This document shows positions 19,024-24,003 of a stretch of DNA of 64,000 nucleotides, piece by piece. Source of the DNA: Bacteroidaceae bacterium. Lineage in GTDB: Bacteria > Bacteroidota > Bacteroidia > Bacteroidales > Bacteroidaceae. Made by a program: the position numbers and the translations under genes. The stretch's first letter is position 1. Each line of letters begins with the position of its first letter. The notes below the pieces were generated by a model, which had not been told where the DNA came from, ran no database searches, and saw nothing but the letters and a program-made list of their open reading frames with translations. Location of the stretch: the NCBI GenBank assembly GCA_017429945.1, contig JAFRNY010000007.1:22542-86541 (forward strand), written 5' to 3'.

Positions 19024-20782
<1,759 letters not shown>

Positions 20783-20808
20783 AAGCTTATGCGACCGTTT
20801 GTGTGGGC

Positions 20809-20940
20809 CGATTCAACCAGATGTACAGGGCGATTCAACCGGATGCATTGGCCGATTCAACCGGATGTACAGGGCGATTCAACCGGACGTATTGGCTGAT
20901 TCAACCGGATGTACAGGGCGATTCAACCGGTCGTGTCGCG
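20809..20940. repeat. Six-unit 22-bp array B with alternating subtypes
   Basis: GATTCAACC starts at 20810, 20832, 20854, 20876, 20898 and 20920, exactly 22 bp apart. Units alternate between an ATGTACAGGGC tail and an ATGCATTGGCC / ACGTATTGGCT tail, giving a 44-bp higher-order repeat. It ends 8 bp from the kduI stop. Confidence 0.95.
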
Positions 20941-20948
20941 ACGATGGT

Positions 20949-21923
20949 TTATTTCAAGTCGATAACGGGGATATTGTCCTTGTCGTTGTAGTAGAGGTTC
21001 TCGCCCGCCATACCCCAGATGAAGGTGTAGTAGTAGGTGCCGGCAGCGGCGTGGATACTCCATTCCGGCGACATGATGGCCTGCTCGTTGTGCAACCATA
21101 CTACACGGCTCTCCTGGGGCTCACCCATGATGTGTGCGATGGTCTGATCCTGCGGGAGATTGAAATAATAGTAGGCCTCGATGCGACGACCGTGGGTGTG
21201 AGGGGGCATCGTGTTCCAGGCGGCACCGGGGTTGAGCTGCGTCAGTCCAAGCTGCAGCTGGCAGGGACCTTCCTCGAGCACGTCGTTGACGATGAGCTTA
21301 TAGACAGTGCGGTTGTTGCACTCCTCGAGCGAGCCTACGGGTCCCCAGACAGCGGCCTTCAGCGAGCCCTTACGGCCGTCGAGGGTGATCCACTGCGTCT
21401 TGTAGTGCTGGTGGGCGGTGGCGCTGTTGAGGTAGAACTTAGCGGGCTTCGAGGCGTCCTTTGAGCGGAAGAGCACTTCCTTGTTCACGTCCTTGCCCTT
21501 GCCGATATGTCCGCGGCCGATATAGAGGGCCTCTTTGGGCGACAGGGCATACTCCTTGCCGTCGACGATGACCCAGCCATCGCCCTCGCCGCAGTTGACC
21601 ACGCCGAGCTCGCGGTTGTAGAGGAAATACTTCTCCTTGATGCCTGGATCAACGTCGAGGCCGAGCTCTGGGAAGTTCTCAAGCTTCAGGTCCTTCGTCA
21701 CAGGCATGGCACCGCCGAAGATGAAGCGGTCGTACCAGGAATAGGTCAGATTGATCTCATCAGCCACCATCACCTTCTCCATCACGAAGCGGTCGCGGAG
21801 GGTCGGAGTGTCGTAGTGCTTTACATCGTCGGGATGACAGGCGGCACGGAAGTTGACGTGCTGCTGGCCGAAAGAAATGCCGGCGCAGCAGAGGAACGAA
21901 AGAATACAAATAATTTTTTTCAT
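20949..21923 (-). CDS. kduI: Secreted 5-dehydro-4-deoxy-D-glucuronate isomerase (KduI)
   Basis: KduI isomerises 5-keto-4-deoxyuronate, released from pectin or other uronate polymers by lyases, to 2,5-diketo-3-deoxygluconate. The cupin fold and metal site are conserved: His242, His244 and Glu249 in [13 protein letters not shown] and His291 in [17 protein letters not shown]. The protein is 324 aa against about 280 for E. coli KduI. The extra length is mainly an N-terminal signal peptide ([20 protein letters not shown]) plus short insertions. Periplasmic location is therefore predicted, which is unusual for this enzyme. A galactitol-type EIIC gene lies upstream on the same strand. Confidence 0.92.
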
Positions 21924-21993
21924 AGAATGAATGAGTTATGATGATTAACGGTAATACAATAAAATTAGAGCTAATATTGACAAAGAAGTTTAA

Positions 21994-22561
21994 CACTAAT
22001 TTGCACAAATAATATTTTAACACAAATGCGCACAAATATTATCATGCAAACAGGCGCAACTACATTATGGATCGGAGACGTAATTCATATAGTTTTCGTG
22101 AGTGAGGAGGATAAAATCATCTATTTCGGGGAGATAAAGGTAACGTTCGGTGTGGAGGTTTGGCTCTCCAAAGTTAAAGAGGATACCGCGGTGCTGATGC
22201 GTGATGCGCATATAGTTAAAGAGTTGGGCACGATGATCAGCCGTAATTTCGGAGAGAGCCTTGAATTCAAGGATTATGCCGTGGTAAAAGTAATCGGCAT
22301 AATAGGCTTTCTCCATTACCATTCCTTTATAGGTGAGCGTCAGTTTCTTCTCACGCTCAATCTCCATCTGCCTCAGGCGCGCTTCCATGAGAAAAGCTTC
22401 CTGATATATCTGCTCTGCCAAGCCTCGGCCCAAAGTGTTATACACCTCCATGGCCACGCCCACGACCTCATACATATCAAGATATTCTCTCCGCGTCATT
22501 TTATTCTATCCTTTTCAATAATTAGTGCCTATTTGCGAAATAATATTTGTGCGTATTAGTG
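21994..22561. repeat. Inverted repeats bounding the GxxExxY gene
   Basis: Left arm 21994-22018 (CACTAATTTGCACAAATAAT...) and right arm 22538-22561, read as reverse complement CACTAATACGCACAAATATT..., match at about 20 of 24 positions. A second, related GCACAAATATTAT lies just inside the left arm. The segment contains only the GxxExxY gene. Confidence 0.65.
22065..22499 (-). CDS. GxxExxY-family protein
   Basis: The 144-aa protein carries the family signature as GLAEQIYQEAF near residue 26 and a likely PD-(D/E)XK-like core (YYADYFYHGIILEFKA, then a long helix ALSEITADHRAQLFNYMR). The family is common in Bacteroidota and other phyla, and its function is unknown. The fold resembles nucleases, but catalysis is unproven. 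The gene sits alone between inverted repeats, interrupting the kduI and EIIC genes, which could mark it as a mobile or selfish cassette. Confidence 0.88.
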   Translation of the reverse strand: MTRREYLDMYEVVGVAMEVYNTLGRGLAEQIYQEAFLMEARLRQMEIEREKKLTLTYKGMVMEKAYYADYFYHGIILEFKALSEITADHRAQLFNYMRITHQHRGILFNFGEPNLHTERYLYLPEIDDFILLTHENYMNYVSDP

Positions 22562-22579
22562 AAAAAAAATAATTGTGTT

Positions 22580-23968
22580 TTATGCCTCCTGCACATTTGT
22601 GTTCGAGCTCATCTTCTCGTCCTCAACAATTCGCTTCCGGTTGATGTACATCATGACAAGAGTTATGAGGGTGAGGATGCCCATACCTATCCATTTCAGA
22701 TACTTCACGCAAGCATAGATGACGTAGCCGAAGAGCGACGAAGCGAAGTCGAGGGCACCGCCGTCGAAGCCCTCGGGGATCTTGGCTGCGGAGGCCGTCG
22801 GGTCTGTCTTATACACCTCATTGGCTGCCAGCGTGAAGGCGGGAGCCATATCGGTTACGAAATAAAGTCCGATGATGAGGGCTACGAGGCCTACGAGCAA
22901 GCTCTTCACCACATTGCCTTTCGTATATGGCAGGATGAGGGGGAAGAGGTAGAACATTCCGGCGAGCGAGGCCAGGGGCAGGAACTGATTGCCGGGGATG
23001 AACACGGCTATTGCCAGGATGACGGGGATGAGGATGACGGAACAGACGAGCGTCGTGGGGTGTCCGATAACCAGGGCAGGCGACATTCCGATGTATATCT
23101 TCTTGCCGCTGAATTTCTTCTTCGCCACTTCCTGTGTCTTTTCTGCAATAGGTTTCAGGCCGTCGATGAAGAGACTGGTGATGCGGGGAATGAGCTCCAT
23201 GACAGCGCCCATCGTGACGCCAAGGAACAACACCTTTTTGATGTCAAGCTGTGCAGCCCAGCCTATCAAGGCACCCACGATGACGCCAAGCACCAGGGGT
23301 TCGCCAAGCACACCGAACTTGCGCTTAAGGCCCTCGGCATCAATATCGAGCTTCGAGAAACCGGGAATCTTGTCCAAGAGCCAGTTGATGCCGACGGCAA
23401 AGACGGTGAAGCTCTGGCAGAAAGGCTGAGGAATCGAGATGCCCTGCAGGTCGTAGTGTTTCTGGAAACGATCGGCGGTGAGGTCGGCCATCACCATCGT
23501 GATGATGTAGCACACGATGGCGGCAAAATATCCCCAGAGCAGGCTTTGGCCCATGACGAAATAGGCAACGGCACCAATGAAGGCGAAATGCCAGTAGTTC
23601 CAAAGGTCGATGTTCACCGTGCGCGTAGTCTTTGTCAAGAGCATCAGCAGGTTGACGCCCAGGCAGATGGGGATTATAAGCGCACCGACGGCTGTGCCAT
23701 AGGCCACAGCAGCTGCTGCAGGCCAGCCCATATCGAAGACCTTAAGCTGCAAGTCATAGAGCTCAGAGATGCCTTTCAAGGGCGAGTCGAAGTTGTTGGT
23801 CAGCAGGGCCGTGACGATGCCGAGGCCCACGAAACCTACGCCCACATATAGACCGCTCTTAAGCGACTTACCGAAGGTCATGCCGATGCACAGGCCGATG
23901 ATGGTGAACAGAATGGGCATCATGACCGATGCGCCGAGCGAGATGATGTAGGAGAATACTGCTTCCAT
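22580..23968 (-). CDS. Orphan galactitol-type PTS EIIC permease
   Basis: The 462-aa protein has about 10-12 hydrophobic segments and matches the GatC family along its length. Matching stretches are SYIISLGASVMMPILFTIIG, YVGVGFVGLGIVTALL, TRTVNIDLWNYWHFAFIGA, FGVLGEPLVLGVIVG and FIPGNQFLPLASLAG. GatC normally works with EIIA and EIIB, and with EI/HPr, to import galactitol while phosphorylating it. None of these partners is in the window, and PTS systems are rare in Bacteroidota. It may act as a non-phosphorylating permease, and the nearby secreted kduI suggests a keto-deoxyuronate substrate. I start at MEAVFSYIISLG, because the six residues before it are encoded next to a GC-rich palindromic repeat. 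Confidence 0.85.
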   Translation of the reverse strand: MEAVFSYIISLGASVMMPILFTIIGLCIGMTFGKSLKSGLYVGVGFVGLGIVTALLTNNFDSPLKGISELYDLQLKVFDMGWPAAAAVAYGTAVGALIIPICLGVNLLMLLTKTTRTVNIDLWNYWHFAFIGAVAYFVMGQSLLWGYFAAIVCYIITMVMADLTADRFQKHYDLQGISIPQPFCQSFTVFAVGINWLLDKIPGFSKLDIDAEGLKRKFGVLGEPLVLGVIVGALIGWAAQLDIKKVLFLGVTMGAVMELIPRITSLFIDGLKPIAEKTQEVAKKKFSGKKIYIGMSPALVIGHPTTLVCSVILIPVILAIAVFIPGNQFLPLASLAGMFYLFPLILPYTKGNVVKSLLVGLVALIIGLYFVTDMAPAFTLAANEVYKTDPTASAAKIPEGFDGGALDFASSLFGYVIYACVKYLKWIGMGILTLITLVMMYINRKRIVEDEKMSSNTNVQEA

Positions 23969-23985: not shown

Positions 23986-24003
23986 CCCTCCCCTTGGGGA
24001 GGG
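23986..24003. repeat. GC-rich palindrome CCCTCCCC-TT-GGGGAGGG
   Basis: An 8-bp perfect stem with a 2-nt loop lies 18 bp upstream of the EIIC start. A partial copy (CATCCCTTGGGAGGG) is near 24106-24120. It resembles a short palindromic intergenic repeat; I cannot say whether it controls expression. Confidence 0.6.

Follow-up and report, generated by a model that had tools for sequence, protein, structure and literature searches.

The window, the whole 64,000-nucleotide stretch of Bacteroidaceae DNA analyzed here, codes on its minus strand for an orphan GatC-type EIIC permease, a GxxExxY (PDDEXK_3) protein, and KduI, transcribed in that order. The EIIC gene (22580-23968) specifies 462 residues from an ATG at 23968; the reading frame opens at a GTG at 23986, but the ATG is the likely start because relatives begin there (MEAVFSYI...). 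The permease scores 251 bits against Pfam EIIC-GAT (cutoff, 24) and has the domain and fold of this group, but reaches 379 bits with the NCBIfam GatC (galactitol IIC) model, under its cutoff of 542, and thus represents a divergent branch. The GxxExxY gene (22065-22499) matches NCBIfam TIGR04256 with 108 bits (cutoff, 35). A first-pass annotation of this DNA placed EIIC and KduI correctly, with an end coordinate of 23968 that is also the likelier EIIC start, and its description of a GatC-type permease on the same strand as KduI agrees with the EIIC-GAT match and with the position of EIIC upstream of KduI; the intervening GxxExxY gene was absent from it.

KduI is ordinarily a cytoplasmic enzyme in the breakdown of pectin and cartilage sugars. 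The window gene (20949-21923) is an intact reading frame of 324 codons whose product matches the NCBIfam KduI equivalog PRK00924 with 339 bits (cutoff, 250) over profile positions 2 to 277 of 277, the Pfam KduI/IolB profile (E, 2e-16), and the KduI in PDB 9kd0 (402 bits). The metal pattern, HxHx4E plus a distal His, is present as H242, H244, E249, and H291 (within 21051-21200), which we take to be zinc ligands by correspondence to Escherichia coli KduI. All four are invariant across 30 aligned EIIC-linked KduI proteins, and the HxHx4E part is kept in 49 of 50 family KduI; in the linked protein of L058, the second His is replaced by Arg. By profile and metal pattern the window protein is KduI, with isomerase activity predicted. 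Its N terminus reads by eye as a 19-residue Sec type I leader (predicted signal peptide, 21867-21923), with cleavage before Q20 and QQ following. This is the Bacteroidota pattern, since signal peptides of this phylum have Q directly after the cleavage site, as described in the accessible part of PMC5837995. A lipoprotein was considered and set aside, as a lipobox was not seen in the leader by eye. The signal peptide and the intact metal site had both been called earlier, and both calls hold.

The open reading frames at 14-32 kb were read by eye and four of them were profile scanned. No PTS genes were seen among them, in keeping with the earlier claim that none lies nearby, and the pair is outside any polysaccharide locus, with neighbors resembling housekeeping genes (by eye). 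The Bacteroidota promoter consensus is TTTG, 17-23, TAnnTTTG, and a scan with it found no promoter of this type in front of EIIC or KduI. The window holds four matches to the consensus versus 0.37 expected, and a match at 20547-20578 on the minus strand is near the start of an IMP dehydrogenase gene. Between that gene and KduI, at 20806-20930, a 22-bp unit is repeated in tandem (CGATTCAACCGGATGTACAGGG, 5.5 copies).

Conservation of the EIIC-KduI pair

A profile search of 151 genomes of the window's family recovered 54 EIIC genes in 53 genomes (nine split matches were merged by hand), and KduI is present in 89 of the 151. Of the 54 EIIC genes, 53 are followed immediately by KduI on the same strand, across distances of -2 to 659 bp; the largest value belongs to the window, where the GxxExxY gene intervenes. 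The match to the unlinked EIIC, in genome G006, stops 3 bp from a contig end. We also collected 80 organism-named loci, the best 80 of at least 588 confirmed matches. These are assigned to Prevotella, Prevotellaceae, Bacteroidaceae, or Bacteroidales, with one Xylanibacter and one labeled Bacteroides, and ruminant sample names are common; isolates carrying the pair include Xylanibacter ruminicola D31d (L213) and Prevotella aff. ruminicola Tc2-24 (L146). KduI is downstream in 77 of these best 80, and for the other three the contig ends after 618, 2, and 76 bp. Among 345 genomes drawn from the phylum, EIIC is present only in the window genome and in G002, of the same family; among 247 drawn from the order it is present in seven, of which five belong to four other families, and KduI is downstream of EIIC in all five. 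EIIC and KduI distances correlate (r = 0.72 over 101 loci; best shuffle, 0.22), in a comparison that ignores the species tree.

The first-pass annotation had named a lack of association between the two genes in other species as an outcome that would count against its model. The association recurs in the family, the named loci, and the other families, with the exceptions at contig ends, and this recurrence rules out a chance neighborhood of EIIC and KduI. The GxxExxY gene is probably outside the pathway. Its membership is disfavored by its presence in the EIIC-KduI gap in only 10 of the 77 named pairs from the best 80 of at least 588 (L147, L162, L164, L174, L181, L190, L191, L198, L206, and L208) and in none of the 39 family loci checked; L179 has a gap of similar size without it.

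Exported and cytosolic KduI

Sec-type leaders were seen by eye in all 50 of the linked family KduI proteins that were read, out of 53 (those of G062, G118, and G146 were left out), with start codons picked by script. A simple leader rule is passed by 76 of the 77 linked KduI from the named loci (best 80 of at least 588), and the KduI of L195 has no leader on reading. A loose pattern for Q after the cleavage site matches 48 of the 50, 46 at the expected site and two (L036 and L100) at a later AQ, and this pattern also matches 70 of 73 named rows (loci from the best 80 of at least 588). As a control set, 20 of the 47 KduI proteins unlinked to EIIC were read by eye. Eighteen have no leader and start MKTN where the start is visible; of the other two, one is the KduI of G006, where EIIC sits at the end of a contig, and one is a second copy in G009, whose start codon is lost. 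This second copy (L123:9695-10585) is of the exported type, has no EIIC, and is part of a decayed duplicate.

The two kinds of KduI are separated in a tree by one branch (57 exported versus 18 cytosolic; support, 100/100) with one label change, and they occur together in nine genomes. A wrong start codon giving a false leader was rejected, because relatives sharing 48% to 93% identity keep the leader. A cytoplasmic KduI had also been listed as evidence that would tell against the earlier model; every linked protein read has a leader, and no further KduI match turned up in the window genome.

The cytosolic KduI of Bacteroidaceae kduI-dhuD clusters (PMC12838403) is of the same enzyme family as the window protein, in contrast to which the exported proteins have a leader and an EIIC neighbor and form the fully supported branch. 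The accessible part of that paper reports that Bacteroidaceae harbored only the kduI-dhuD cluster type and names the reductase DhuD; in the paper's text the terms PTS and signal do not occur, and it refers to the phosphotransferase system in connection with streptococci. By reading, the PDB 9kd0 protein begins much as the exported KduI proteins of G002 and G091 do after their leaders. We found no paper with this code in the open-access literature, and neither a report of an exported KduI nor one of a PTS-free EIIC paired with KduI.

Linked pathway genes and the transported compound

G009 has the gene order KdgK-KduD-KdgA-EIIC-KduI once, preceded by SusC and SusD genes, and G037 has this order twice. 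Ahead of one of the two G037 clusters are a protein that matches heparinase-II/III weakly, a GH43-like frame (by reading), a lipoprotein with a GH88-profile match, and a DUF4861 protein. KduD-EIIC-KduI is the order in G010, G060, G569, and G672; G569 and G672, together with G517, are genomes of other families with KduD near the pair, and G517 also has KdgK and KdgA. KduD is near the pair at 7 of 39 family loci and at 1 of the 77 named loci (best 80 of at least 588), none of which has KdgA or KdgK of >45% identity nearby. By adding KduD, KdgK, KdgA, GH88, and lyase-like genes to the pair, these operons favor the pathway of 5-keto-4-deoxyuronate (DHU).

KduD-type reductases, which we define as full-length matches (profile positions 1 to 247) below the curated cutoff among the matches listed (to approximately E 9e-56), are found in 42 of 44 genomes with exported KduI only, 44 of 45 with cytosolic KduI, and 3 of 62 in which both EIIC-linked and cytosolic KduI are missing, in counts that take in one partial match (G041) and ignore phylogeny. 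The cytosolic class here comprises unlinked proteins of <57% identity, leaving out the second G009 copy. The curated kduD cutoff is passed in none of the 151 family genomes, and the two KduD-type proteins that were profile scanned, one each from G009 and the window genome, are above the NCBIfam gluconate 5-dehydrogenase cutoff and below that for kduD. The reductases that were read start without a leader, except for a fused frame in G517, and with KduI exported, its product would thus have to cross the inner membrane. On the supply side, a leader or lipobox is recognizable by eye in four of the window genome's five GH88-profile matches, the marginal fifth looking alike, so unsaturated uronate should be freed in the periplasm. 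GH88 BT3348 of Bacteroides thetaiotaomicron is described as periplasmic in the accessible text of PMC6994673.

Two side observations concern these genes. In the fused frame of G517 (L220:6050-7675), a GH28-like exported protein (by eye) continues without a frame break as the C-terminal ∼200 residues of KduD, which reflects either a deletion or an assembly error. In the other case, L110 (G000:C48) is a 1,043-residue frame with a leader and a DUF4861-like part (by eye) before a GH88-profile match.

The first-pass annotation placed the enzymes acting after import elsewhere in the genome. This is borne out for the reductase, as the window genome has a KduD-type gene on another contig with no recognized sugar genes around it, but not for KdgK and KdgA, for which no match of the G009 type was found in this 82%-complete genome.

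Exported KduI could instead convert galacturonate and glucuronate to tagaturonate and fructuronate, with EIIC or a transporter of the MFS class importing these products. E. coli KduI reportedly aids the conversion of both hexuronates (accessible part of PMC3578941), and an MFS gene directly follows KduI in 60 of the 77 named loci (best 80 of at least 588; e.g., L198:8923-10380); the one relative scanned, from G025, has a D-galactonate transporter as its closest model (165 bits, below the cutoff of 395). We nonetheless consider hexuronates unlikely substrates, since the sugar genes linked at some loci are those of the DHU pathway type (the dehydrogenase KduD, the kinase KdgK, and the aldolase KdgA) and KduD-type genes track exported KduI (42 of 44, among the matches listed). 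At Prevotella locus L198, from the same named set, the genes run EIIC, GxxExxY, KduI, and MFS, followed by a kinase that shares 40% identity with the KdgK of G009.

The frequency of this MFS gene at the named loci also raises the prospect that the MFS protein imports the KduI product and that EIIC carries another compound from the same breakdown. This is similarly doubtful: no MFS gene of this type was called in the fuller clusters (G009, G037, G010, G060, G569, G672, and G517), none was seen after KduI or elsewhere beside the window pair, and it is EIIC that is the invariant partner.

PTS partners and a candidate uptake route

HPr is present in 5 of the 151 family genomes, with EI-type matches in the same five, and EIIB is present in 6. 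Of the 53 genomes with EIIC, 51 have neither HPr nor EI; the other two, G006 and G034, have EI, HPr, and EIIB-type matches. The window genome (82% complete) has a single EIIC match and no match to HPr or EIIB, and its one EI-profile match is within a 742-residue frame read as pyruvate phosphate dikinase; the partners with which GatC works, EIIB, HPr, and EI, were thus not recovered there. A full galactitol PTS elsewhere in the genome, which the first-pass annotation saw as contrary to its model, was not detected, and a PTS elsewhere is rejected for nearly all of the genomes with respect to HPr, EI, and EIIB. That EIIC acts in a phosphorylating PTS with partners located elsewhere or too divergent for detection, as G006, G034, and the incompleteness of the window genome might allow, is highly improbable given that HPr is missing in 146 of 151 genomes by a profile that detects it in 7 of 14 control genomes, that EIIB in the five HPr-positive genomes is in ∼600-residue frames on the HPr contig that read as a different PTS, and that G009 and G150, each a single contig and 99% complete, have EIIC with no HPr found.

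These properties set the permease apart from known relatives. GatC, the EIIC of the galactitol PTS (PDB 9u82, Leminorella grimontii), differs from the proteins here in that 51 of 53 genomes do not have EI and HPr, the window EIIC falls below the NCBIfam GatC cutoff, and 53 of the 54 EIIC genes adjoin the gene for an exported isomerase. UlaA, the EIIC of the L-ascorbate PTS (PDB 4rp8 and 4rp9), has 13% identity and acts within a phosphorylating PTS, according to the accessible part of PMC6048161.

The export signal and the orphan EIIC neighbor suggest that a sugar acid is rearranged outside the inner membrane before uptake. We propose, with a probability of roughly two in three, that EIIC and KduI together form a module that takes up unsaturated uronates independently of a PTS, as judged from sequence features: the leader, the metal site, the EIIC fold, the missing HPr, EI, and EIIB, the linkage, and the co-occurrence of KduD-type genes. 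Unsaturated uronate would be released into the periplasm by exported or lipid-anchored GH88/GH105 enzymes and would open to DHU there, and exported KduI would isomerize DHU to the 2,5-diketo acid DK-II in the same compartment. EIIC, presumably an elevator-type carrier of the ascorbate-galactitol group, would import DK-II unphosphorylated, and a cytosolic KduD/DhuD would reduce it to KDG. EIIC is the candidate carrier because it is the invariant membrane partner of exported KduI; the substrate, the direction of transport, the energy source, and the periplasmic activity of the enzyme are features that we infer. A GatC-family EIIC is deduced to carry xylose unphosphorylated in E. coli without EI, as stated in the accessible part of PMC10989795.

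Against the proposed uptake route stand the position of the window pair outside a polysaccharide locus, the missing G009-type KdgK and KdgA in that genome, the scarcity of KduD, KdgA, and KdgK near the pair at other loci, the KduD-type matches that all score below the curated kduD cutoff, the EI and HPr of two EIIC genomes, and the MFS gene that follows KduI at many loci and might encode the importer. The earlier model, in which lyase products are isomerized in the periplasm and imported by EIIC without phosphorylation, is partly supported by the exported KduI, the linkage, and the DHU-type operons; in it, the transported compound is a candidate and transport free of phosphorylation is putative. 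It seems on balance probable that in Bacteroidales an EIIC belonging to the ascorbate-galactitol group has permanently parted from the PTS and serves as a stand-alone importer of an acidic diketo sugar, which the KduI encoded with it would produce in the periplasm, in an isomerize-before-import scheme.

We found no description in the open-access literature of how unsaturated uronates from pectin and glycosaminoglycans pass the inner membrane in Bacteroidales, and a conserved importer would fill this gap in uronate uptake for rumen and gut species. Annotation of these genes as a galactitol PTS or as cytosolic KduI should be avoided. If the proposed route is true, only the rearranged product would be carried across the inner membrane, and EIIC would be a natural example of a PTS permease serving as a secondary carrier.
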